NCBI GenBank assembly: GCA_025360785.1
Contig: JANYBN010000019.1
Span: forward strand, 1-34,561
Length of the DNA stretch: 34,561 bases
DNA from: Geobacter sp.
Lineage (GTDB): Bacteria; Desulfobacterota; Desulfuromonadia; Geobacterales; Pseudopelobacteraceae
Direction of reading: 5' to 3'
Positions within the stretch are counted from its first letter, which is position 1. The number at the start of each line of letters is the position of its first letter. Positions 4,498 through 34,170 of this stretch are shown in pieces. The position numbers were made by a program, and so were the translations under genes. The notes under the pieces were generated by a model. That model ran no database searches, had not been told where the DNA came from, and saw nothing but the letters and a program-made list of their open reading frames with translations.

Positions 4498-6018
4498 TCA
4501 CAACCACGTAATCACAAAAGCCCGCAGTTTCCCGCCAGCTCCATCACGATAACAAACCACCTGAAGTTTATTGCCTACCTTGCCTCGCTCTATCTTGTAC
4601 CCATCCTTCTGTTCAGTTGAATCAGCCTTGAACACGATGGCGCCGGCGACCTGTTGCAACGCACGCTGCATAAACACTTCATTCACCCCAGCCCCACCAC
4701 GATCAAGAACCTGAATCCCCTTAATGACGCCATTATTTTCACGCTTCACGCGGAACTCGGTTACCTTGCCTCGATACAGTTCCCAACCAGGATTTTTTTT
4801 GCCGTAGGACCGGTCCAGCGCAGCGCGGGGAATAAAGTCAGGTAAAGCAGTTATTGGACCGGACAAAGGAACCGCACTCTTTTTCTTGTTATCAATAGCG
4901 GTGATGACGGCTTTATCACCCAGGCGCGGATCGGATACAGAAGAAGTTGCCGGACTTGTCGTAGCCGCTAAAACCTGCGGAGCAGGCTTAGCTGATATGG
5001 CGGCAGGCCTGGGCTTGGAGGCAAACAGATACATTCCACCAACCACAACTGCACCAACCACGATTACGGCAAAACCGATCGTGCGTAAAGGGCTTGCAGG
5101 ACGAACAGGTCTTGGAGTTGAGAGATTTTTGTCCACGATGACCGGTTTATTCTCTACCGTCCCGCCTAAAAATCTGAGTATCGGACTGAATATTGCCAAA
5201 GGATCGCGACCTGGTGAGTAAAATACATGAGTAGCTGCTTGTCGCACGTGGCGTTCCCCGACAGTCCTGCTCTCTTCGATGAAGGCCGACATGAGTGCTC
5301 TGGATGCCAGCAGATTGATCGTACGGGGAATGCCGTTAGTCAGGCCGTGGATAGCCTGCTTGGCCTGTTCGTCAAAGATCGTCATCCCCTTGCCGGCCTT
5401 GTTCAGTCGAAAGCTTATATATTCGGAGGTTTCCAACAGAGTGAAGGGATGCAGTTCTGCCCTGACCGTTATGCGCTGGTCAAGCTGCCTTAGATGATTC
5501 TGACGTAATCTCGCTTTAAGTTCAGTCTGCCCGATCAGGATTATCTGCAACAGCTTTTCCTTTTCAGTCTCCAGATTCGAGAGGAGTCTAAGCTCTTCAA
5601 GTGTTTCATCCGGGAGCTGCTGTGCTTCATCCACCATGATTACGGTCTTTTTTCCATCCGCCGCACTGGAGAGCAGAAACTCGCGGAACGCCTTGATGAT
5701 CTCATTCTTGCCGCCGGTCGGCTTCGGCACATTCAGATCATCCAGCACAGCCAGAAGAAACTCTTCCGGAGAAAGGCGCGGCGTTATGATCAGGGCAATT
5801 TCGTATTCATCCTTGCACTTTTCAATAAACACCTTGAGCGTGATGGTCTTACCGGTCCCAGGTTCACCGGTAATGAGCAGGAAGCCTTCCTTGCGATCGA
5901 TCAGATAATCGAGAGAAAGCAGTACTTCATTATGGCCTTCGGAACGATAGAAAAAATCCGGGTCAGGCGTAAAGCGAAACGGGTCTTCATCAAGATTGTA
6001 AAATTTCAGGTAATCCAT
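4498..6018 (-). CDS. mshM: ExeA/GspA/MshM-type AAA ATPase with periplasmic C-terminus
   Basis: 506 residues. The N-terminal AAA module has Walker A GEPGTGKT (residues 51-58) and Walker B VIMVDEAQ (about 126-133), with the family opening FYNLDEDPFRFTPDPDFFY. A membrane segment lies at about residues 310-330 (IGFAVIVVGAVVVGGMYLF), followed by an Ala/Pro-rich linker and a ~120-residue C-terminal domain probably in the periplasm. ExeA/GspA proteins hydrolyse ATP in the cytoplasm, bind peptidoglycan outside and help insert the secretin; MshM is the MSHA-pilus relative. The start at 6018 has AAAGGAT just upstream and lies 2 nt after the platform-protein stop. It is the last gene of the minus-strand operon. 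The C-terminal region is not a peptidoglycan-binding domain that I recognise. Confidence 0.85.
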   Translation of the reverse strand: MDYLKFYNLDEDPFRFTPDPDFFYRSEGHNEVLLSLDYLIDRKEGFLLITGEPGTGKTITLKVFIEKCKDEYEIALIITPRLSPEEFLLAVLDDLNVPKPTGGKNEIIKAFREFLLSSAADGKKTVIMVDEAQQLPDETLEELRLLSNLETEKEKLLQIILIGQTELKARLRQNHLRQLDQRITVRAELHPFTLLETSEYISFRLNKAGKGMTIFDEQAKQAIHGLTNGIPRTINLLASRALMSAFIEESRTVGERHVRQAATHVFYSPGRDPLAIFSPILRFLGGTVENKPVIVDKNLSTPRPVRPASPLRTIGFAVIVVGAVVVGGMYLFASKPRPAAISAKPAPQVLAATTSPATSSVSDPRLGDKAVITAIDNKKKSAVPLSGPITALPDFIPRAALDRSYGKKNPGWELYRGKVTEFRVKRENNGVIKGIQVLDRGGAGVNEVFMQRALQQVAGAIVFKADSTEQKDGYKIERGKVGNKLQVVCYRDGAGGKLRAFVITWL

Positions 6019-6020
6019 GG

Positions 6021-7232
6021 TTATCCTTTGCCCACCTTGGCGACCAGATCATAGATCGGAAGCAGCAGACCGCCGATGATAATTGCGAAAAAAACGCCCA
6101 GAACGCTGATAACCAGCGGCTCAATGATCTTGCCCATCTTCTCGGAAATATCGTCAAGTTTTTTGATGTAGTATTCAGAAAGAAAGCCGAATTGTTCGTC
6201 CAGGGTACCGCTCTTCTCGCCGATATCCACCATGCGGATCAGGATCGGAGAAAAAAGATTCTGTTCTCTCAGAGCGTTGGAAATGGTGCTTCCGGTAGAA
6301 ATACGTTCTTTGGCATCGACAATGGCAACTTTAAAAACCTCATTACCAACAAGGCCGGACATCATATCCAACGATTTGGTAATTGTCATACCGGCCACCA
6401 GCAGGATTCGCAGCTGTTCGGCAAACACGGCGTGGAGCTTGTTATAGACAATCAGCTTGATTACCGGAAGCTTGATCTTCATCTTATCCAGCCAATACCG
6501 TCCACCCGGCCTGGATTTCAATATCCTGAACGTGGCATAAACCAAGGCTCCGGCAATGAAGAAGGTATACCAGTAGTCTTTGCAAAAGTTACTGACATGC
6601 ATCAGGCCGAGCGTCAGAGGCGGGATCTTGGCGCCCAGATCCTTCATGGTTGCCATAACCCCCGGCAGCACGAACACAAGCCAGAAACCGAGGGCGCCCA
6701 GGGTTGCCACAATGGCAAAGGACGGATAGATCATGGCACGCTTGATGGCAGCCGACAGATCCTCCATCTTTTGAAGGTGATCGGCTATATGTGACAGGCT
6801 CTGATCAAGCCGACCGGTTTCTTCCCCGACCTGGATAACCTTGACAAACACACTGGGGAAATTGTGCGGGATAAAGGTTTCCGAAAAGCGCATTCCCTGT
6901 TCGGTTCTGCGGCGAATATCGGATACAGCATACTTCAATCTGCGATTGTCGGTCAGCTTGATGATATCCGCCAGGGCGGTGCTTATCGGCATACCAGCCT
7001 TCAGCATGACCGACAGGTTGGTGGCCAGTTCGATAACATCCTTGCGGGGCATGGTGCGCGATCCCATAAATTGACGGACAGCAGCCTGCACCTGAGGTTC
7101 CTGACGCATATCCAGAAAATAAAGCCCCATACCGGCAATTACACCGCGAACTTCGGCAACATCTTCCACGTCAAGAACGCCCTGCACTAATGCTCCCTCA
7201 GTGTCTATCGCACGATATAAATAGCTGGCCAC
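6021..7232 (-). CDS. mshG: GspF/PilC/MshG-type inner-membrane platform protein
   Basis: 403 residues from a GTG at 7232. The frame is open to an ATG at 7304, but that would overlap the ATPase gene by 68 nt and add a basic tail. The GTG lies 4 nt after the ATPase stop, with a G-rich Shine-Dalgarno, and gives the family's usual N-terminus (VASYLYRAIDTEGALVQGVLDVEDV). Two T2SS-F domains repeat along the chain: each has GxxEETG/GEKSGTLD-like motifs (IQVGEETGRLDQSL, VDIGEKSGTLDEQF) and hydrophobic segments at about 195-220, 245-265 and the C-terminus (PLVISVLGVFFAIIIGGLLLPIYDL). The protein is the membrane base on which the ATPase turns to add or remove pilin subunits. Confidence 0.9.
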   Translation of the reverse strand: MASYLYRAIDTEGALVQGVLDVEDVAEVRGVIAGMGLYFLDMRQEPQVQAAVRQFMGSRTMPRKDVIELATNLSVMLKAGMPISTALADIIKLTDNRRLKYAVSDIRRRTEQGMRFSETFIPHNFPSVFVKVIQVGEETGRLDQSLSHIADHLQKMEDLSAAIKRAMIYPSFAIVATLGALGFWLVFVLPGVMATMKDLGAKIPPLTLGLMHVSNFCKDYWYTFFIAGALVYATFRILKSRPGGRYWLDKMKIKLPVIKLIVYNKLHAVFAEQLRILLVAGMTITKSLDMMSGLVGNEVFKVAIVDAKERISTGSTISNALREQNLFSPILIRMVDIGEKSGTLDEQFGFLSEYYIKKLDDISEKMGKIIEPLVISVLGVFFAIIIGGLLLPIYDLVAKVGKG

Positions 7233-7236
7233 TAAC

Positions 7237-8883
7237 CTACCCCGTAACGCGCATAACTTCTTCAAGAGTCGTAATACCGCCTGCCGCCTTGGCCAGTGCT
7301 TCATGGTGAAGCGGCTTCATGCCTGACCGGATGGCAGCTTCCTGCATGGCAATCGGTGATGCCCCGGCAAAGATCAGCTCACGAATTTCGTCGTTGATGA
7401 TCAAAATCTCGCCGATAACCGTTCTCCCGAGATAACCGGTCCCATTGCATTTATCGCAGCCGGCTCCTTTGACTCCGGTCTTTGTTTTAAAACTGAATTC
7501 GGCAAATATGGCCAATTCTTCTTCATTAAGCTGGTATTCCTGTTTGCAATGCGAACAGACCCTGCGAATCAGCCGCTGGGCCAGAATAGCCAACAGAGAT
7601 GAAGACATCAGAAATCTATCGACCTTGAGATCCATCAGGCGCGGAATAACTGTAATAGCATCATTGGTATGAAGCGTTGACAACACCAGGTGACCGGTAA
7701 TAGCGGCCCTGATCGCGATACGGGCGGTCTCCTCGTCACGAATTTCCCCCAGAAGCATGACATCCGGATCCTGTCGCATGAAATTACGACCGGCCATGGC
7801 AAAGTCGTAACCGACTTTCTCGGTAACCTGGGTCTGTTTTGCCAGACTAAGTTTATATTCAACCGGGTCTTCAACCGTCAGGACGTTCTTCTCCATCAGG
7901 TCGATTTCACGCAGCGCAGCGTACAGTGTCGTAGTTTTACCGCTGCCTGTGGGACCGGTGATCAGGATGATGCCATGTGGTTTCTGAAATAGGGTACGGA
8001 TCTTGCGAGTCTGATGCGGATCGAAACCTAGTCGTTCAATACGTAGAATAGTGCCGGACCCGCCCAGAATCCTCAGCACGACATTCTCACCGTAAATGGT
8101 CGGCACGGTCGAAACACGGATGTCATAGCCACGTTTGAGCAGTGTGAATGAAAACGAACCATCCTGAGGCAGACGCTGTTCGGCGATATCCAGATGCGAG
8201 AGGATCTTGATACGCGAGACCAGCCCGCTATGCAACGATTGCGGCAGTCCGTGTCCGTGCTGAAGTACTCCGTCGATTCGGTAAAAAATCTGTACGACAT
8301 CCACCGTTGGAGTGATATGAATATCGGTAACCTTGCGGCGAATGGCATCCATGATGACCAGATCGGTCATAGTGGTGACAGCATTGCCATCCGGAATTCC
8401 TCCGCCCAGCAATGAGTTGATAATCTGATCAATCTGTCGCTGAATCGGGTTCTCCAGGAAAAAATAGGCACGTTCGGTGGCATCCTGAAACCCTTCCGCA
8501 TCAACAATGCAGACAGTGGGCTGGGTACCTATAATCTTGGTCACAGCGTCAATGGCCATGATATTATTGGGATTGAGGATGCCGATATTGAGGATGCCGT
8601 CTTCAATATCCAGCGGTATGAAATGATATTTTTCGGCCGTAGCCTTAGAAATCATCCGCAAGGCATCTTCATTGATAGAAAAATTGGCCAGATCGATGTA
8701 GCGTAAGCCGGCATGCTCGGCCAGCGTTTCACCCAGCTCTGAGGATGACAGAAACCCGAGTTTGACCAGCGTATCACCCAGCAGCAGACCGGTAATCTTC
8801 TGATGCTTGACGGCAATGCGGACCTGTTTTTCAAGGATCAGCCCTTTTTCCAGCAGTAAATCACCAAGTCTCAGCGTTGACAT
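7237..8883 (-). CDS. mshE: PilB/GspE/MshE-type assembly ATPase
   Basis: 548 residues. The N-terminal ~150 residues are a MshEN/GspE-N domain (LRLGDLLLEKGLI, LGDTLVKLGFLSSSEL repeats); in Vibrio MshE this domain binds c-di-GMP, and the two repeats here have the right look, though binding is inferred. The motor core has the Asp box VTDIHITP, Walker A GPTGSGKT (310-317), Walker B DVMLLGE (374-380) and His box GHLVLSTLHTND. A zinc tetracysteine motif is present: CSHC at 443-446 and CDKC at 476-479, typical of extension ATPases and absent from retraction PilT. It powers pilin or pseudopilin polymerisation. A weak GGGG precedes the ATG. It is separated from the secretin by a repeat-filled 142-nt gap but is otherwise in the same operon. 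Confidence 0.92.
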   Translation of the reverse strand: MSTLRLGDLLLEKGLILEKQVRIAVKHQKITGLLLGDTLVKLGFLSSSELGETLAEHAGLRYIDLANFSINEDALRMISKATAEKYHFIPLDIEDGILNIGILNPNNIMAIDAVTKIIGTQPTVCIVDAEGFQDATERAYFFLENPIQRQIDQIINSLLGGGIPDGNAVTTMTDLVIMDAIRRKVTDIHITPTVDVVQIFYRIDGVLQHGHGLPQSLHSGLVSRIKILSHLDIAEQRLPQDGSFSFTLLKRGYDIRVSTVPTIYGENVVLRILGGSGTILRIERLGFDPHQTRKIRTLFQKPHGIILITGPTGSGKTTTLYAALREIDLMEKNVLTVEDPVEYKLSLAKQTQVTEKVGYDFAMAGRNFMRQDPDVMLLGEIRDEETARIAIRAAITGHLVLSTLHTNDAITVIPRLMDLKVDRFLMSSSLLAILAQRLIRRVCSHCKQEYQLNEEELAIFAEFSFKTKTGVKGAGCDKCNGTGYLGRTVIGEILIINDEIRELIFAGASPIAMQEAAIRSGMKPLHHEALAKAAGGITTLEEVMRVTG

Positions 8884-8900
8884 CGATACGACCCCTTAAA

Positions 8901-9012
8901 ACCTTACCACCCATAACCCCTCCTACCAAAAGTAGGCGCTTCTAAGCGAAACTGGAGCGGGACTTTAGAAGCTCCCCTCCTTTATCAAGGAGGGGCTGGG
9001 GGTGGTAAAGGT
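8901..9012. repeat. Intra-operon nested palindromic repeat
   Basis: Outer arms ACCTTACCACCCATAACCCC (8901-8920 onward) and AGGGGCTGGGGGTGGTAAAG (8991-9010) are near-inverted copies. Inside is a perfect hairpin, CCCCTCCTT (8974-8982) with AAGGAGGGG (8987-8995) around TATC, and a CGCTTCTAAGCG palindrome near 8937-8948. The element sits between the secretin stop and the ATPase start on the same strand. There is no T run on the minus-strand side, so it is not a standard terminator; it may affect mRNA stability or dosage. It is built like the element at 4379-4481 and shares a motif with 26460-26481. Confidence 0.75.
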
Positions 9013-9025
9013 GTTGGTGTTGATT

Positions 9026-10687
9026 TTATTTCGACACGATTACCGGCTGCAGAATAACAACCAGTTCACGCTTGGTATTTTCCTTGGACTTCCGGGTAAA
9101 CAACAAGGTGCCGAGCCATGGAATGTCTCCGAGCAGCGGGACTTTGTTGTCTATCATAACTTCTTTTTTTGAAATCAGACCGCCAATTACCACCATTTCT
9201 CCGTCACGCACCTTGACCGTGGTGCTTAGCTCGCGCAGATCAACTGTCGGCAGAGTAATGGAGCTCTGGCCGAACACGCGTTCTTCCTGGCTGACCAGAT
9301 CGGTAATAATCGGCGTAATGTTCATGATTATATCGCCGTTTTCGCTGATAAACGGAACAATGCCGATGATAACACCGGAAAGGATACTATCTGTCTTGGA
9401 GTCTACGGTTGTGGTCAGGACGCCGTTCTGGGTATTGGTGGTTGTCTTTATCTCAGAGAGAAATTTAACATTGCGGCCGACACTCAAAAGCGAAGTCTGA
9501 CCGTTCATAATGCTGACCCTGGGATTGGAAAGTGTTCTCACCTCACCCTGCCCTTCCAGTGCGCTCAGCAGTGAGCTGAACTTGTTCCCCTTTATTGCCG
9601 CCGTAGTGATCGGCAGGCCGCCTAAAGAACTGGTTGTGAAATTTTCAGACTTGATCGACAGCCCCAAATCGCCTATTTTATCAATAAAACTCCAGTCCAC
9701 ACCAAATTTCAACGAGTCGTTAAGCTCCACCTCGATGATCCGGGCCTCAACAAGCACCTGACGATTCATGACTTTTTTGACTGCAGCCAGATATTGCTCG
9801 ACTTTTTCGAGGTTCTTTTTTGATGCCGTGACTATTACCGTGCCGGAGAGCCGATTGATGGAGAAAAACTGCAGTGGAGCTGCTGAAGATGATGACAGTG
9901 ACTCAGCCGGTAGTGGTGAAACTGCAGCTTCAACCACCTTGGCCTGCTTGCCGTTTTCGCCCTTTAGCGGCTGTTCGAAAGAGACAGGAGATATCGGCAA
10001 TTTGGCTGCAACGGGAGGCGCAACGATGGCGTTATCCCCAATAATGGCCTTCAGGTTTGCCTCAATGCCGTCCCAATACTTGAAGGCGGTTGTGTCAGCC
10101 TCTACCTTTTGAGAGATATTCCCTTTGACCGTACTTCCAAGAATATCCCCGCCGGTATCGACCGTGAACGTTTTGTTTACCGACGGCTGACCGATCTCGA
10201 ACATGCGGGTTTCTACCGCACGCACGTTCAGCATGTTTTCCTTGATTGAATAAGAATAATCCACCGAGGTAAATACCGACTGCAGGGCGTCTTCGGCACT
10301 TATATTTCTCAGAGAGAGCGTCACCTTCATCTCCGGATTAACCCCCTGCTCCATAATGAGGTTGAGTCCGCATGATTCGGCAATCACCAGCAGTACATCA
10401 CGCAACGGCGTGTTGCGGGCAGAGATATCAACGATACGGGTCTTGAGCGGTGAGATGTCCTCACTGGCAGGGGTGAAATCAGGCAATGACGTTTCAGAAG
10501 GAACCTGTGCGGGAGCAGGCCTGGTCTGTTCTGCAGTTTTGGGAAGTTGAACTTCCCGTTTAAGCTGAACCTTGTTGGCTGCGTAGCTGCACGAAACCAG
10601 CAACATTAAGACAGCAAACATCAGTACGCGCTGAATGGTATATTTAATTGCTGCTTTTCCGGCAGCGCCTATCTTAACAAAACCCAT
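9026..10687 (-). CDS. mshL: Secretin (MshL/PilQ/GspD family), lipoprotein
   Basis: 553 residues. The N-terminus has a basic stretch, a hydrophobic segment and the lipobox LVSC (FAVLMLLVSCSYAANK), so it should be lipidated and may reach the outer membrane without a separate pilotin. Residues ~75-140 form an STN/N0-like domain (ARNTPLRDVLLVIAESCGLN, ISAEDALQSVFTSVDYSYSI). Residues ~280-310 are an N1-like fold (LSGTVIVTASKKNLEKVEQYL), and the C-terminal ~230 residues are the secretin barrel (VEARIIEVELN, TLSNPRVSIMNGQTSLLSVG, TVKVRDGEMVVIGGLI, VPLLGDIPWLGTLLF). It forms the outer-membrane channel. The ATG follows GAGGGGG by five bases and overlaps the end of the PilP-like gene by 19 nt, so the two are translationally linked. 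Confidence 0.92.
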   Translation of the reverse strand: MGFVKIGAAGKAAIKYTIQRVLMFAVLMLLVSCSYAANKVQLKREVQLPKTAEQTRPAPAQVPSETSLPDFTPASEDISPLKTRIVDISARNTPLRDVLLVIAESCGLNLIMEQGVNPEMKVTLSLRNISAEDALQSVFTSVDYSYSIKENMLNVRAVETRMFEIGQPSVNKTFTVDTGGDILGSTVKGNISQKVEADTTAFKYWDGIEANLKAIIGDNAIVAPPVAAKLPISPVSFEQPLKGENGKQAKVVEAAVSPLPAESLSSSSAAPLQFFSINRLSGTVIVTASKKNLEKVEQYLAAVKKVMNRQVLVEARIIEVELNDSLKFGVDWSFIDKIGDLGLSIKSENFTTSSLGGLPITTAAIKGNKFSSLLSALEGQGEVRTLSNPRVSIMNGQTSLLSVGRNVKFLSEIKTTTNTQNGVLTTTVDSKTDSILSGVIIGIVPFISENGDIIMNITPIITDLVSQEERVFGQSSITLPTVDLRELSTTVKVRDGEMVVIGGLISKKEVMIDNKVPLLGDIPWLGTLLFTRKSKENTKRELVVILQPVIVSK

Positions 10688-18454: not shown

Positions 18455-18482
18455 TTGCAACTTCGAGTTGTTCGGGTAGTAT
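18455..18482 (+). promoter_or_regulatory. Promoter and palindromic operator of the mntA-hepT pair
   Basis: TTGCAA (18455-18460) and TAGTAT (18477-18482) with 16-bp spacing form a plausible promoter. A perfect palindrome CAACTTCGAGTTG (18458-18470) overlaps the -35 box and spacer, a usual place for autoregulation of a toxin-antitoxin operon. Autoregulation is inferred. Confidence 0.5.
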
Positions 18483-18520
18483 GTCGAAACCATTCCGATT
18501 TCAATCAGAAGGATATAAAA

Positions 18521-18808
18521 ATGGCACAGATAACTCCGTTTGATGACAGAATAATCAGTTTCATGCTCCAACATGGTGCTGAAAAAGTTGGCGTATTCGG
18601 TTCATACGCCCGTAATGAAGCACGGGAAGACAGCGATCTTGATCTCATGGTCTGGTTCAAAGAGCAGAAAAGCCTTCTAGGAATGATTCGTATAGAACGC
18701 GAACTATCTGAACTACTGGGCGTTAAAATAGATTTGCTGACCGAACAGGCCGTCAGCCCTTATCTTATTGACCGCATAAAAAGTGAGCTCAAGGTGATTT
18801 CTAAATGA
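18521..18808 (+). CDS. mntA: MntA-type nucleotidyltransferase antitoxin
   Basis: 95 residues from ATG 18521, which has AAGGA eight bases upstream; the longer open frame back to 18455 overlaps the promoter and has no Shine-Dalgarno. The protein is a minimal nucleotidyltransferase fold with the family motif GS-x10-DxD: Gly27-Ser28 (VFGSYARNEA) and Asp39/Asp41 (DSDLDLMV). In characterised HepT/MntA pairs the MNT protein adds AMP groups to a Tyr on the HEPN toxin and so blocks it. It overlaps the toxin gene by 4 nt (ATGA), which ensures co-translation. All key residues are present, so the gene looks functional. Confidence 0.9.
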   Translation: MAQITPFDDRIISFMLQHGAEKVGVFGSYARNEAREDSDLDLMVWFKEQKSLLGMIRIERELSELLGVKIDLLTEQAVSPYLIDRIKSELKVISK

Positions 18809-19152
18809 TTCGGGACGATCAAGTCTACCTTGCTCATATCAGGGATTGCCTGCAACAGATATCCACATACACCGTCGGGATGGAGAAAGAAATTTTTCTG
18901 GGGAACCGCATGGTACAAGACGCAGTGATCAGGCAGTTCGAGATAGTTGGCGAGGCAACCAAAAATCTGTCCGATACCTTCAGGGAGCGTCACCCTTTTA
19001 TACCGTGGAAAGATTTGGCCGGTTTCCGTGACAAACTAATCCATCAATATTTTGGTGTAGATCTTTTGATGGTCTGGCGGTCTGTTACTGATGATGTCCC
19101 GGTTTTGCTGAATGAGTTACTAAAGATACAAATGCCTAAAAGTCAAGCTTGA
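18805..19152 (+). CDS. hepT: HepT-like HEPN ribonuclease toxin (DUF86)
   Basis: 115 residues, mostly alpha-helical. It has the HEPN RNase motif R-x4-H-x-Y: Arg75, His80 and Tyr82 in FRDKLIHQYFG. The Arg/His pair forms the RNase site of the dimer and the Tyr is the residue AMPylated by MntA in studied systems. The conserved VIRQFEIVGEATKNLS segment at about 41-56 is typical of DUF86. The start overlaps the mntA stop by 4 nt. Together they form a type VII (MNT-HEPN) toxin-antitoxin module, possibly for plasmid-like stability or phage defence; the genome role here is unknown. Confidence 0.92.
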   Translation: MIRDDQVYLAHIRDCLQQISTYTVGMEKEIFLGNRMVQDAVIRQFEIVGEATKNLSDTFRERHPFIPWKDLAGFRDKLIHQYFGVDLLMVWRSVTDDVPVLLNELLKIQMPKSQA

Positions 19153-19267
19153 CTCGGAAATTTCACTCACCATAACTGCATTAGAATGTCATGCAATATT
19201 GTTTAACGTTGGCATTGCTCGCATACGTTTTTTACAGTAATTCATCATTATGGACAGGAGTTTTCCC

Positions 19268-20866
19268 ATGCGTATTTTGTCTCTGTTCTCACTAATAATT
19301 TTCACGTTATCCGGATTTTCAGGGTGAGGGTCAAGCGGTACCACAGCCAGTGACTCAAGCGGTGCACTGAATGTCGATGGCACATCATCGGTAGCAGCCA
19401 AAGGAACCGGTTCAATCTCGGTCGATTTCATGTCCTCCTCACTTCAGCAGGCCGGAACGGTCGTAACCGTGACAGTTGACACCCCGGTCATCGCATTTGA
19501 TACAACCAGCGTTACGCTTGACAACAGCGGTAAAGCCACATTCACCTTCCGCACGCTAGATGTTCAGGATGACGCCGTAGTCCGAGTAACGGTTACGACC
19601 GGGGCCGTCGTAGTTAACCGGACCATAGCCGTCAAGGGAACAGGCGTTACTCCAGATGGTGTTGTAGTGACACCTGGAGCGGTTACTTCTTTAGTCAACT
19701 CGATCGCATTCACGTCCGCAGCACCGAAAAACATCAGCCTCAAGGGGATGGGTGGCGCCGGAAGGTCCGAGACCTCAATAGTTACTTTCGTGGTGAAGGA
19801 TCGGTTCGGTAATCCTATAGCCAACCAGACGGTCGATTTCTCCCTTGATACCACTGTCGGCGGCATTGCTCTTTCCATCCCCAACTCCGTCAGCAATACA
19901 AATGGACTAGTCCAAACCGTCGTTTCATCTGGCACGACTGCGACAACCGCACTTGTTACCGCAACAGTTCGCGGCACTTCAATCAAGATCAAATCTGAAA
20001 GCCTTGTCATTTCAACCGGCATCCCCCACCAAGACGGTATGTCTGTCAGCCTCGGTGCCTCCTTTCCGGAAGCTCTCGATTTTGACAATATAACGGTACC
20101 GGTTCAGGTCATGCTGGCAGACCACTTCGGCAACCCGGTTCCGGATAACACCGCCATCTATTTTTCTGCTTATGGCGGATCGATCGAACCTGCCGGTTTC
20201 ACAACCAATGGCATTGCGACCGTCAAGTGGCGGAGTCAGAATCCGCGGCCTGCTGACGGTAAGGCGCGGCTCCTTATCTATGCTCTCGGCGAAGAAAGCT
20301 TTATAGATGCAAATGGTTCGGGGCTAGCCGAGGCGGGAGAATTCACCGACACCGGCGAAGCATTCCTGGACCTGAACGGCAATGGTACACGTGACACAAA
20401 CGAGCCTTTCATCGACTTCAACGGAGACGGCCTATTTAATGGGGGTGACGGTAAATTCAACGGGGTTCTGCAAGGGATTGCATATAAAGGAGCAGCCACT
20501 TCCAAGCACATTTTTTTCAACAATGTCATTACAATGAGCGGCAGTTCAGCGGCAATTTCAAGTCCGAATCCTGCGACCATTGCGCTTGCACCCTCTTTAG
20601 GAAGCTCTGCAATTACCGATGTAACTGTTGTTATCACAGACAGCATCGGGAATCCGATGCCTGAAGGAACTACTGTAGCGGTCAACTACAAACTTTGTAC
20701 TATTGGTGCTTCAAGTAAGTCGTTCACTATTTCACAAAAAGGTGACACCAAATTTATCACCTCCTTGGAAAATCAATGTTCCGCGTCCGGAAGCGCCGGC
20801 TTTACAGTATCAACCACCACCCCAAAAGGGCAGAAAGCAGAGAAGACTTTCATATTGAATTATTGA
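19268..20866 (+). CDS. Ig-like repeat lipoprotein with in-frame TGA at the lipobox position
   Basis: An ATG at 19268 with AGGAG seven bases upstream opens a lipoprotein signal peptide (MRILSLFSLIIFTLSGFSG). Codon 20, where the lipobox Cys should be, is TGA (19325-19327). The same frame then continues without a stop for 512 codons to 20866, first as a Gly/Ser/Thr linker (GSSGTTASDSSGALNVDGTS), as after many lipoprotein cysteines. The next ATG in frame (19430) has no Shine-Dalgarno and no signal peptide. The body holds bacterial Ig-like (Big_1/invasin-like) strands (VVKDRFGNPIANQTVDFSL, VMLADHFGNPVPDNTAIYF) and, near two thirds, Asp/Asn-rich calcium-loop-like repeats (DLNGNGTRDTNEPF, DFNGDGLFNGGDG). 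It may be a pseudogene by one base change, a Sec-encoding gene, or a sequencing error. Confidence 0.65.
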
Positions 20867-20890: not shown

Positions 20891-20926
20891 AGCCCCCCCC
20901 GAACGGATTATCCGTTCGGGGGGGCT
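20891..20926 (+). terminator. Strong terminator after the Ig-like gene
   Basis: A C-rich arm ending CCCCGAACGGA pairs with TCCGTTCGGGGGGGCT around TTA, a stem of about 16 bp with one bulge, followed by TTTGT. It lies between the Ig-like gene and the convergent VOC gene and could serve both. Confidence 0.85.
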
Positions 20927-23247: not shown

Positions 23248-23340
23248 TCTACAGCGGAGAGGAGGTTAACGAAGTCGGAGAAGTCGATCGTGCGGCAGTC
23301 CCAAGGTTTTAATGACGTTCTACTTGAAAAGGAGAATAAC

Positions 23341-25749
23341 ATGAGAATGCGGAATTTATGTCTTGTATCACTTGCGGCTGCCGTTCTTGCCGGATGCGGT
23401 GGCGGCAGTGGCAGTAGCAGTACCGGCAACACAATCACCCCTCCTGTCACCACTGCGACAAGCGCACTCACGATTGCCAACAAGGTGAGCGGTGTTGACC
23501 CCAACCAGACTAATGGCGGAATCGGCAAAGCGGTTTCCCTGGCGGTAAGCTTTCCGGACGCATCCGATTACATGAAAGACAAGACGAACGTCTACGTTCA
23601 AGAAGGTTCGACCGATGCATTCAGAACGGTCAACGAGATTCTCTGTTCCATGGGACAGACCGGCTATGACTCCATGCTTAACAAGGGTGACTACAAAGCG
23701 CTGGTGGACAAGAAACTCTGTAGTGGTGGCACTGACCAGAATGCCAATGCCGGCCAGAATGCCGGTGCCGGTGCGCCGGATTTCCAGGAGTTCACTGTCA
23801 ACTCGTCCCGTCCGGACAACAGTTCTCCGCAAATAGTTAAACTTTGGATCCATGAGAAGGCCAGGAACTCAGATCCGGCCAAAGCGATCGTGGGTAGGGC
23901 TGAAATCACCGAGGCCAGCAGCACGACAAATCCTTTGGGACAGTTCACGATGAACTTCGTCGCCTATCCATTGAAAGCAAATGGTACGGCAAACTCGTCA
24001 GCTCAGCCCCTCTTCAAAGGATTCCTGAAAACCGTAAAGGATACTGCAACCGGTCAGACATCACTTCAATTCGGCTCACAGGACTTGAACCAGGGCCCTT
24101 ATAACAATACGCAACTGGCCGCCTTGCAACGCTCATCCGATGGCGCCTCCGGCAGCGGTTCCGTTAACAGAAACACTAACGGCACCATTGAGAGTCAGAA
24201 TATCGCCTACAATTCGTTGTTTTTTCATCGTAAAAACGCCTCAGAAGATGTCTGCCTCGATCGCGGCAAATTCGAGACTTCCGCCTGGCGGTATGGACTT
24301 TACAACTCAAATGGCGCCAGGGTCGATCGAAACTCGGGTTTCCCCATCAAGCTGGCCGATGGCAGTTCGGGCTGGATGGGCTACTGGGGACTCTGGCTCC
24401 AGGGGAACGGCAGCATTGCAAATGGCGCTACGGTAACCAAACAGGGCTTTAACGGTGCGGCAGATGCGACGTACACCGCGCTGGTAGCCGGCGGCAAGAT
24501 GAAGAAGCATACACGCCAGAGCACGACCTTGGGCGCCATCAAGAACATTCCGCTGGACGGCTGGATGGAGATGACCAATGCCAATCCGCCTCAATCGGTC
24601 AACTACCGCGTCATCTGGAACGGCACCAACTTCGTCAAGATTGCCAAGTTTGACCAGACCGCCAACACATACACAGATATTCCGAATGGCGGAACCGCAA
24701 TAACCGGCTTCACCAATCAGAATATCAACCTCTGGTCACAATCGGTCGGCGGACAGGTCATTATCAACCTGACCTGCACCTTTACACCGCCGGCAATGGG
24801 GCAACAACCGACAATGAGCTGTACGGCTCCGACCGATTCAATGCAGGTGGTCTATTATTCGGAAGACATTGTTTATCCAAATGACCCCGCGAATCCTATC
24901 CCGGCGAAGTTCGCCTGTGCCAACGGCTGCATTGATCCTGCTAACATATCAACCAGTTCTCCATTCTTTGCTGAATCGGGCTTTTTCAATGAAGCGCCGG
25001 TCACGGCAGTTGACAAGTTAAATAGCTATTCTTTTGACGGCAGCAGCTATGTCCTGAAATCAGGAGCATCCCAGCTGACCAGCACAACTACAGCTCAACA
25101 GTGGGGCGTACAGACCGGGCCGCTGTTCGATCCAACCGTTGCCGGCAATATTGCGGCACTGGCCTGCGACAACAACCCCAATCAAACCTGCACCTGGAAT
25201 GCCTGGAGCAAATTGAACGTCTTCTATACATGGGAAACCGGCGGCAATCCTTTTAACCAGTTCACAGCACTCAAAGATACCAATGGCAAGTTTCTTACAT
25301 TTGACCCGCCATTGCAGATCAAGTACACTTATGTGGCTACTGGCAATACGTCTTCGGATGCGAAATATGGTGGAACGGCTCCAGCAACCTTCGCGCTGGA
25401 TTATGCCGGTTTTGGCCAGTTGAACGGTATCCCTGGAAAATGTGTTGATATGAGAGATGGAAATCTGGCTGATTGCTCATCACAGGGGAACAATCAAAAT
25501 ATCCGGTGGGTGCCGGAATTCATTATTCCAGAGGCATCCACGGTAGCATCAGGCTCAACCACTTATTATGTAAAGCCTCTGGATGTTGAGCAACGCATGA
25601 AAAAGGCGACGGCCGGGAGTTGTGCAGCATTGACGACAACGACCCTGGCTTTGCCATTGATGTCGGAGTTCGCTGACCCCACATCGTCAAACGGTGCTGA
25701 ACCGGCCATTTCTTCAGCGCCGGCAGTCATTGCTGGCGTTGTCAAATAA
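23341..25749 (+). CDS. Large lipoprotein of unknown function
   Basis: 802 residues from ATG 23341, with AAGGAG six bases upstream; the frame is open 17 codons further but without a signal. The lipobox is LAGC (LAAAVLAGCGGGSGSSSTGN), followed by a Gly/Ser linker. The mature part is rich in Asn, Thr, Gly and aromatic residues with even beta-type periodicity, and has cysteines in several pairs (VCLDRG, KFACANGC, LACDNNPNQTC, GKCVDMRDGNLADC, GSCAAL) that suggest disulfides. There is no CxxCH, so it is not a cytochrome. I recognise no catalytic motif. It is probably anchored in the outer membrane, perhaps at the surface. A strong terminator follows at 25776. Confidence 0.8.
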   Translation: MRMRNLCLVSLAAAVLAGCGGGSGSSSTGNTITPPVTTATSALTIANKVSGVDPNQTNGGIGKAVSLAVSFPDASDYMKDKTNVYVQEGSTDAFRTVNEILCSMGQTGYDSMLNKGDYKALVDKKLCSGGTDQNANAGQNAGAGAPDFQEFTVNSSRPDNSSPQIVKLWIHEKARNSDPAKAIVGRAEITEASSTTNPLGQFTMNFVAYPLKANGTANSSAQPLFKGFLKTVKDTATGQTSLQFGSQDLNQGPYNNTQLAALQRSSDGASGSGSVNRNTNGTIESQNIAYNSLFFHRKNASEDVCLDRGKFETSAWRYGLYNSNGARVDRNSGFPIKLADGSSGWMGYWGLWLQGNGSIANGATVTKQGFNGAADATYTALVAGGKMKKHTRQSTTLGAIKNIPLDGWMEMTNANPPQSVNYRVIWNGTNFVKIAKFDQTANTYTDIPNGGTAITGFTNQNINLWSQSVGGQVIINLTCTFTPPAMGQQPTMSCTAPTDSMQVVYYSEDIVYPNDPANPIPAKFACANGCIDPANISTSSPFFAESGFFNEAPVTAVDKLNSYSFDGSSYVLKSGASQLTSTTTAQQWGVQTGPLFDPTVAGNIAALACDNNPNQTCTWNAWSKLNVFYTWETGGNPFNQFTALKDTNGKFLTFDPPLQIKYTYVATGNTSSDAKYGGTAPATFALDYAGFGQLNGIPGKCVDMRDGNLADCSSQGNNQNIRWVPEFIIPEASTVASGSTTYYVKPLDVEQRMKKATAGSCAALTTTTLALPLMSEFADPTSSNGAEPAISSAPAVIAGVVK

Positions 25750-32082: not shown

Positions 32083-34170
32083 GTGCATAAACATGCCTTA
32101 TTTTTTCTTCTGATCTGTCTGGTGTCGTTGGTTTTGATCATACCGGGATGTTCCAATAACAATGGGAATCAAGGGGGTGACAACGTTAACAATGTTTATT
32201 ACAACTATCTGAAAGAGGGAAAACATGTGGAGCTTCCGGCTGCTCAGCCGCAATTCCCAGCCAGCGGCGAGCTCTACTCCGAGAATACAAGCGTTTTCAA
32301 GCTGGTGCCGGCGAGCACAAACACTCTCCAGAAAATGCTGCCGGATGCCATGCTCTCCGATTTTGCCCTTTATTTTACTCCTGCTTCAGCGACCAAACGC
32401 GTTGCATCGGCCATCAGTGACGCCCCATCATCAGCTGCATCTTCTTCAACCGCTATCCCGTCCCTGAAAAAACAGGATGTTATTCCGGCTTCCTGCATGG
32501 GGCTGACCGACACCGCTCTTCGGGACTGTCTGGAGAACCTTGGTGTCAGCTCGGCACCCCAAAGCGACCATGTTTCAGCGCACGACCCGCAATCGCTTGC
32601 TATCGAGGTGGGGCAATCAATCACTGATTCGATAACGGGCAAAACGTTGCAGGCATTGACGTCTAATGTTTCCAAGGTGGATCGGGATGCCATACTGGCT
32701 AAACTTACCGATTTCACAAACGATGACCCAACCCATGCAAATATTGATATGGCCGCTTTCGATCCTTTTAACGCCACTGGTTACTCTCTCAGCACGGTAG
32801 TCATATCCGACAGCAGCATGTCGGATATAAACAGCGATGGCGTTCTGGAGCCGCACTCAACGATGAGCACAGAAGTCGTAAAGCCTGTCGCGTACCGGCG
32901 GAGTCCGTCCGCCGCTTTGGATTCCTGCGTAAATAAATACGGGAATAACATCGAGGATCGCTACGTTGTCAAAGTGACGACCTATCTTCATCTGGATCAC
33001 CTGAAGGCTCAGCGACAAACACTGCCGGTGTACATTCCTGTGAATATCGATTCCGAGGCCCCTCCCGAATTTTACGACTCTATTCATAATGCCAGGGCTA
33101 TTAATAATGCGCTGGATGCCAATATCATCAAATCTATCTATGGCTCACCCGCTATTTTGCCTGGATCGTCAACCGAATACACATTCATGTTCCAGATAGA
33201 CCCCGATCAGATCAGCGCTGAGTATATGGATCTCTTCGAGAAGATATCGGCTGCAGGCGATACTGCATGCCAGGAAGTGGTCGAGCAGCATATCAACCCC
33301 CGTACGGCCATTATAAGCGGCGTGTCGTCCGCGGGGCGAGTTCTGAAGAAAGGTAGTGGTTCCTTGACAGCTTTTTACCAGGTTCCGACTGCCTTCAGCC
33401 GGCAACTGACGGCAAAGATTGCTGCAGCCCTAACCGGTGGAACCGCTACAATATCAGCTGACTCCGAGCCCTTACGCGACTACTGTATGGTCGACGGGGA
33501 CGGGCGAAAAGTGGCCATAGTCGATCCCGTGAGCGGGGCAGTCATTCCTGCCTGCGAAAAATTCAACCGGCAGGCCATGGCAAAAACGGTGCTGATGACT
33601 AAAGGCGGCGCATGCAGGGATGATAGTGGACACTGGGCCTATGAGCCGTCCAGGGTAAGGACCGCACGCTTCGGCAGAGGTATCCAGTGGATCCTGACGG
33701 AGTGGCTTTTGCACGACCAGGTCGGGGACTACAAGAACATCCATTGGTATCAAAGTGCTTGGAAGAGTGGAGCTCAGGTAGCGGTGAAGGGAGCCAAATA
33801 CGTTATTGCTACATACCTCAAAATCCAGGTAGGTGCGATTACACTTAAAGAAGGCGAGACTAAAAAAGTAGCTTGTTTAAAAAGCCTTCTGCCACTAATC
33901 AAAGATATTGTCTTAAAAATGCACGGATTGAAAATTGCGGGATATCACCTGTCTATCCCAGGTAATGTGGGTGTTTTTTTTGAGGGATCAGGTAGTGGTT
34001 TCGGCAACTCAACTTTCGACTACAATTTGGCTTCAGATCTAAGTCAAGGAGTGAAGGGCTTTCTGGTGGACAGAGTTACGGATGCCGCGGCCCAGATGCT
34101 AGATATGACCATTACCGGATGGCAGGATATTTCCGATAGAAGCCACTATGGGTGCTTCGAGTTTCAGTAA
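32083..34170 (+). CDS. Large lipoprotein of unknown function
   Basis: 695 residues starting at GTG with GGAGG six bases upstream. The lipobox is IPGC (LVSLVLIIPGCSNNNGNQGG), followed by an Asn/Gly linker. The mature region begins with a Ser/Ala/Pro-rich part, then contains two similar Cys motifs (PASCMGLTDTALRDCLENLG) and a region with mixed alpha/beta character. The C-terminal third is more helical (FGRGIQWILTEWLLHDQVGDY, AACLKSLLPLIKDIVLK-like segment). No known catalytic motif or heme motif is visible. Own promoter, strong Shine-Dalgarno and terminator (34197) suggest a well-expressed single gene. I do not recognise the family. Confidence 0.8.
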   Translation: MHKHALFFLLICLVSLVLIIPGCSNNNGNQGGDNVNNVYYNYLKEGKHVELPAAQPQFPASGELYSENTSVFKLVPASTNTLQKMLPDAMLSDFALYFTPASATKRVASAISDAPSSAASSSTAIPSLKKQDVIPASCMGLTDTALRDCLENLGVSSAPQSDHVSAHDPQSLAIEVGQSITDSITGKTLQALTSNVSKVDRDAILAKLTDFTNDDPTHANIDMAAFDPFNATGYSLSTVVISDSSMSDINSDGVLEPHSTMSTEVVKPVAYRRSPSAALDSCVNKYGNNIEDRYVVKVTTYLHLDHLKAQRQTLPVYIPVNIDSEAPPEFYDSIHNARAINNALDANIIKSIYGSPAILPGSSTEYTFMFQIDPDQISAEYMDLFEKISAAGDTACQEVVEQHINPRTAIISGVSSAGRVLKKGSGSLTAFYQVPTAFSRQLTAKIAAALTGGTATISADSEPLRDYCMVDGDGRKVAIVDPVSGAVIPACEKFNRQAMAKTVLMTKGGACRDDSGHWAYEPSRVRTARFGRGIQWILTEWLLHDQVGDYKNIHWYQSAWKSGAQVAVKGAKYVIATYLKIQVGAITLKEGETKKVACLKSLLPLIKDIVLKMHGLKIAGYHLSIPGNVGVFFEGSGSGFGNSTFDYNLASDLSQGVKGFLVDRVTDAAAQMLDMTITGWQDISDRSHYGCFEFQ

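Follow-up and report, generated by a model that had tools for sequence, protein, structure and literature searches.

An in-frame TGA at the lipobox cysteine codon of an Ig-like-domain lipoprotein gene in a Geobacter sp. genome

The closest described relatives of the gene analyzed here are the secretin-linked Big_1 lipoproteins (L002 to L021), which share a lipoprotein signal peptide, a Ser/Gly-rich start and an Ig-like region. Nonsense-disrupted (pseudo)genes of draft bacterial genomes offer another likeness, as they too show one early in-frame stop in an otherwise intact gene of patchy occurrence. A further likeness is found in bacterial selenoproteins, such as those encoded by fdhF and fdnG, known selenoprotein genes of E. 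coli, and presumably, judging by homology, by the formate dehydrogenase gene L071 of the same order as our genome, where an in-frame TGA stands at the position of the homologues' Cys and sel genes are found in the genome. Selenocysteine (Sec) is placed in the active sites of oxidoreductases (PMC1794560), and Sec/Cys exchange against homologues is given as a pattern used in seeking selenoproteins (PMC12013277). The titles and abstract openings covered by our literature search held no report of Sec at a lipobox.

Our locus lies in a window of 34,561 nucleotides (the whole stretch of DNA that was analyzed) and differs from each of these systems in one respect or another. All 20 homologous lipoproteins have a Cys where the window has a TGA, and 15 of them have a secretin gene upstream, whereas an MntA/HepT-like pair occupies that place in the window. 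Unlike in the usual nonsense-disrupted gene, the stop falls on the codon of the lipid-anchor Cys. In contrast to the bacterial selenoproteins, no SECIS-like stem-loop stands where one would be expected, and judged by its position the residue is non-redox. As it stands, the locus looks like an ordinary disrupted gene. If the TGA did encode Sec, the residue would serve outside redox chemistry and would anchor the lipid through selenium.

The interrupted gene and its homologues

On the plus strand, a Shine-Dalgarno sequence (AGGAG, 19256..19260) stands 7 bases before the ATG at 19268, which opens a lipoprotein-type signal peptide of 19 codons (19268..19324) ending in FSG. The peptide encoded from this ATG up to the stop reads MRILSLFSLIIFTLSGFSG. 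Codon 20, the lipobox +1 position, is an in-frame TGA (19325..19327). The frame then runs open for another 512 codons to a closing TGA at 20864-20866, and this part (19328..20866) encodes a Ser/Gly-rich linker and an Ig-like region, recognized from the translation, the profile match and the homologues. Two Pfam families were matched above their cut-offs, Big_1 (44.6 bits; curated cut-off 34.9) and Invasin_D3 (38.2 bits; cut-off 33), and no further decay of the frame was seen. The gene therefore carries the domain of an Ig-like (Big_1) lipoprotein but has a TGA in place of the Cys expected after the signal peptide. The original prediction had described an ATG at 19268 with AGGAG 7 nt away, a TGA at codon 20, 512 open codons and an Ig-like product with a Gly/Ser linker; all of these elements are present, and the nature of the product is borne out by the Big_1 match and by homologues at 45-52% identity.

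The homologue search returned 22 match rows. After leaving out the window itself and L022, which is the second piece of the L019 gene, 20 genes remained (L002 to L021), 19 from other genomes and one paralogue from the same genome (L002). For the 19 genes from other genomes, the matches spanned 337 to 503 of the 512 residues at an identity of 45-52%; when whole alignments to the window protein were considered, identity was 39-44%, and 32% for L002. Where our script listed several candidate cysteines at a locus, the lipobox Cys was picked by eye as the one after the hydrophobic segment. Reading the homologues at codon 20, as had been proposed with the original prediction, gave a uniform answer at the level of the order: a Cys at the matching lipobox position in 20/20 genes, and Sec in none. 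The Cys is preceded by a hydrophobic segment and directly by G in 14 genes and A in 6. In L002, whose lipobox is intact, and in L014, the residues before the Cys are FSG, the same as those before the TGA in the window.

No genome closer to the window than these homologues was found, and a search of plasmids for homologues gave no match. Outside the order, and standing outside the count of 20, three loci were found in another genome collection, two in Rhodocyclaceae MAGs (40% identity) and one in a Methanoregula MAG (30%), both values over best segments. The lipobox reads LLSAC at both Rhodocyclaceae loci, and the distant Methanoregula frame has a signal-like segment and no lipobox Cys.

Because the frame past the TGA matches Pfam and has homologues, it appears to belong to a real gene that was intact until recently, and its homology to full-length proteins suggests that the change is recent and single. 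The Cys of the 20 homologues indicates what the residue would have been; this is compatible with a nonsense mutation and with Sec alike.

The family is of patchy occurrence, being present in 7 of the 39 genomes of the genus and in 20 of the 147 genomes of relatives (our own genome included in both counts), which suggests that loss of the gene is tolerated. A secretin gene was found within 1.5 kb upstream at 15 of the 20 homologue loci; L005, L008, L012, L017 and L021 had no upstream secretin match, and the match at L011 was weak (1.7e-4). In two genomes (G015 and G022) the secretin gene stands immediately before the lipoprotein gene, within a run that includes T2SSF-like genes and, in G015, T2SSE-like genes as well, and the paralogue L002 of our genome is likewise located after a secretin gene. 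The window copy, with the MntA/HepT-like pair upstream instead, stands apart from the usual partner of this accessory, mostly secretin-linked family.

Selenocysteine machinery and SECIS tests

The sel genes, whose presence the original prediction had left to be checked, were all found in the genome above their cut-offs: selA at 600.8 bits, selB at 366.3 bits (together with its neighbours in a single frame of 729 codons), tRNA-Sec at 71.5 bits and selD at 378.9 bits. The selD product is of the Cys type, with its Cys in VKGAGCAAK, which we take to be the active site. selB is at 3414-5603 of contig C96 (L054), with tRNA-Sec beside it; neither selA nor selD is on this contig. With this machinery, Sec is possible in principle. 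The four families searched for internal stops in our genome, formate dehydrogenase (12 match rows), selD (4), AhpC-TSA (7) and thioredoxin (4), showed none, and thus no actual selenoprotein of the genome was identified among them. The Fdh-alpha-like loci of the genome (L042 to L049, on contigs C227, C102, C203, C128 and C195) are without an internal stop, and none is over the family cut-off. Fdh-alpha over the family cut-off was found in 30 of the 78 genomes searched; of the 35 rows obtained (E up to 1e-150), 33 were without a TGA and two, both from genome G100, had one. L071 is one of these two, and its TGA presumably encodes Sec, judging by homology.

The original prediction had pointed out a small hairpin after the TGA, in which GGGTCA (19328-19333) pairs with TGACTC (19351-19356), and had held that it lacks the features of a SECIS and could arise by chance; our folds agree on both counts. 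The hairpin (19328..19356) is part of the minimum-energy folds of 19325-19364, 19325-19370 and 19316-19376, all with energies within the range of dinucleotide shuffles (z of 0.01, 1.08 and 0.55 for 40, 46 and 61 nt), and it falls outside the minimum-energy structure of a 100-nt fold (z 0.05). A bacterial SECIS has its apical loop 16-37 nt from the UGA and a G among the first two bases of the loop. In the 40-nt fold, the apical loop ACCACA starts 12 nt past the UGA and has no G in its first two bases. No Rfam match was obtained in 19100-19600 at E up to 5.

SECIS-like structures were also sought with a permissive scan based on these rules, with 400 random TGAs of the window for comparison. The best hairpin at our site, a different one from that at 19328-19356 (-9.8 kcal/mol, at 35 nt), was equalled or beaten by 94/400 random TGAs. 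The controls were fdhF and fdnG, annotated through their TGA, and L071; they were reached by 59, 62 and 26 of the 400, respectively, so the permissive scan discriminates weakly. Two other TGA triplets of L071, which are not Sec codons, were reached by 400 and 155 of 400 and were not counted as controls. A strict test, set after the controls had been seen, called for a stem of 4 or more contiguous pairs, at least 2 of them G-C, and a loop of 3-7 bases starting with GG, GT or AG 14-24 nt past the UGA. All 3/3 controls passed it, their loops lying 18 or 19 nt away, as did 113/1355 background TGAs. The TGA at 19325 failed: the GGUC/GUC-type loop that the three controls show some 18 nt past the UGA is missing there. 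A SECIS stem-loop just past the UGA was thus not found.

The genome was further scanned for other TGAs in a lipobox context, using a pattern that covers part of the possible lipoboxes (YTN at -3, KSN at -2, G/A at -1, the TGA, and G/A at +2). It occurred at 80 places, against 40 for a reversed control pattern. All 80 were examined and gave 79 distinct contexts, of which those with at least 30 codons past the TGA were inspected. Among the 79, only that of the window combined a signal-peptide-like segment with a long frame past the TGA. Next in length came the frames of L136 and L147, in which only 1 and 5 codons precede the TGA, and that of L126, which continues for 147 codons past its TGA but is free of Met over the 45 upstream residues inspected. 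A few contexts are near contig ends and their frames may be cut.

Explanations for the stop

Taken together, the locus looks like an ordinary one-base lesion, arisen either by mutation or in assembly, and not like a novel role for Sec. We consider it probable that the TGA is a real nonsense allele, one base away from Cys, in a dispensable lipoprotein gene. The gene encodes an Ig-like-domain lipoprotein of the family that usually adjoins a secretin gene, and a single base change would have turned the codon for the lipid-bearing Cys into a stop. Translation would then end after the 19 residues of the signal peptide, the lipidated protein would not be made, and an accessory gene would have lost its function recently. 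Speaking for this reading are the intact frame past the stop, the Cys of the 20 homologues, the patchy distribution, the paralogue L002 with its intact lipobox, the MntA/HepT-like pair in the place of the secretin gene, and the lack of a restart with a Shine-Dalgarno sequence up to codon 140 and of a SECIS-like element beyond chance. We infer that the organism itself carries the change, which would then not be an artefact of the assembly, that a single base was altered and that no product is made. Counting against plain nonsense are the position of the stop exactly on the conserved Cys, the lack of other decay and the presence of the Sec machinery. In the frame as it now reads, a stop would arise from 123 other single-base changes, so that at equal rates random nonsense would strike the lipobox Cys about once in 124. 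A coincidence of 1 in 124 is notable, but not strong for an example that a scan for oddities had singled out.

A serious though lesser possibility is that the TGA stems from an error of sequencing or assembly, or that the assembler fixed a variant of a minority strain; the organism would then have the Cys and make a normal lipoprotein. The draft genome comprises 229 contigs and its contamination is estimated at 2.53%, the rest of the frame is intact, and the 20/20 homologues with Cys fit an error as well. The TGA also sits between two GGG runs (GGGTGAGGG), and such runs flanking a codon may lean mildly toward base-call trouble. The site is, however, about 15 kb or more from both contig ends and not in a long homopolymer. 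How belief is shared between a real allele and an assembly error is a judgement, not a measurement.

Reading of the UGA at 19325 by SelB and tRNA-Sec, with Lgt joining the lipid to the selenol, appears very improbable to us. The machinery is over its cut-offs (selA, selB, tRNA-Sec and a Cys-type selD), the exchange of Cys for a TGA follows the pattern used in selenoprotein searches (PMC12013277), and the odds of about 1/124 under random nonsense lean the same way. Against this stand the lack of an Rfam match, a hairpin at 19328-19356 within the shuffle range, the 94/400 random TGAs that do as well in the weakly discriminating permissive scan, and the failure of a strict loop test that 3/3 controls and 113/1355 background TGAs passed. 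The own-genome families searched yielded no selenoprotein, and the 79 contexts no second lipobox-TGA gene. The residue concerned, by position only, since the aligned Cys is the lipobox Cys, is also a lipid anchor and not redox-active, while Sec occurs in oxidoreductase active sites (PMC1794560). We consider it just as improbable that a SECIS of non-canonical form or very low strength directs Sec here and that selenium carries the lipid. As a leading reading, Sec at the lipobox was rejected for want of a SECIS-like element and of a second case among the 79 contexts, and for the non-redox position. The recoding option of the original prediction is not supported, and its ranking, which put mundane options ahead of recoding, is supported by the same results: no SECIS beyond chance and a singleton among 79. 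The case illustrates that sel genes in a genome, together with a TGA where Cys is expected, do not suffice for calling a selenoprotein; the SECIS and the homologues need to be checked.

Least likely of all would be a stop that is tolerated because leaky read-through of the UGA, or re-initiation within the gene, still yields some protein that is unlipidated or wrongly anchored. The frame is open and offers an in-frame ATG at 19430..19432, the first start codon past the stop, and GTGs at 19469 and 19667. None of these three has an AGGAG-like sequence in the 14 bases upstream, no in-frame restart with a Shine-Dalgarno sequence was seen up to codon 140, and a product started at any of them would be without a signal peptide. 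Ordinary read-through would put a residue other than Cys at the lipobox and would thus give no lipidation.

Other features of the window

Just upstream of the broken gene, at 18455-19152, lie overlapping genes for an MntA-like nucleotidyltransferase and a HepT-like RNase (type VII toxin-antitoxin), which are over the Pfam cut-offs and below the NCBIfam equivalog cut-offs. Past the gene, a hairpin scan found a terminator-like hairpin on the plus strand (20894..20924) of 14 pairs, 11 of them G-C. It is the longer of 2 terminator-like sites in the window, where 2.3 would be expected by shuffling.

Two other lipoprotein-like frames of the window have a normal lipobox Cys. The frame at 23290-25749 (819 aa) reads LAAAVLAGC, with the Cys in LAGC; it matched no Pfam family at E 0.001, and in NCBIfam only a weak lipo-invert match, below the cut-off, was obtained. 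The frame at 32083-34170 (695 aa) reads LVLIIPGC, with the Cys in IPGC, and had no NCBIfam match at E 0.001.

A separate cluster lies on the minus strand at 4498-10687 and comprises genes for an ATPase of the XrtA/PEP-CTERM-associated type, which scores below the TIGR03015 cut-off, for T2SSF, for T2SSE (with MshEN) and for a secretin. Two related genomes have a similar cluster, in which the gene of the Ig-like lipoprotein comes directly after that of the secretin.
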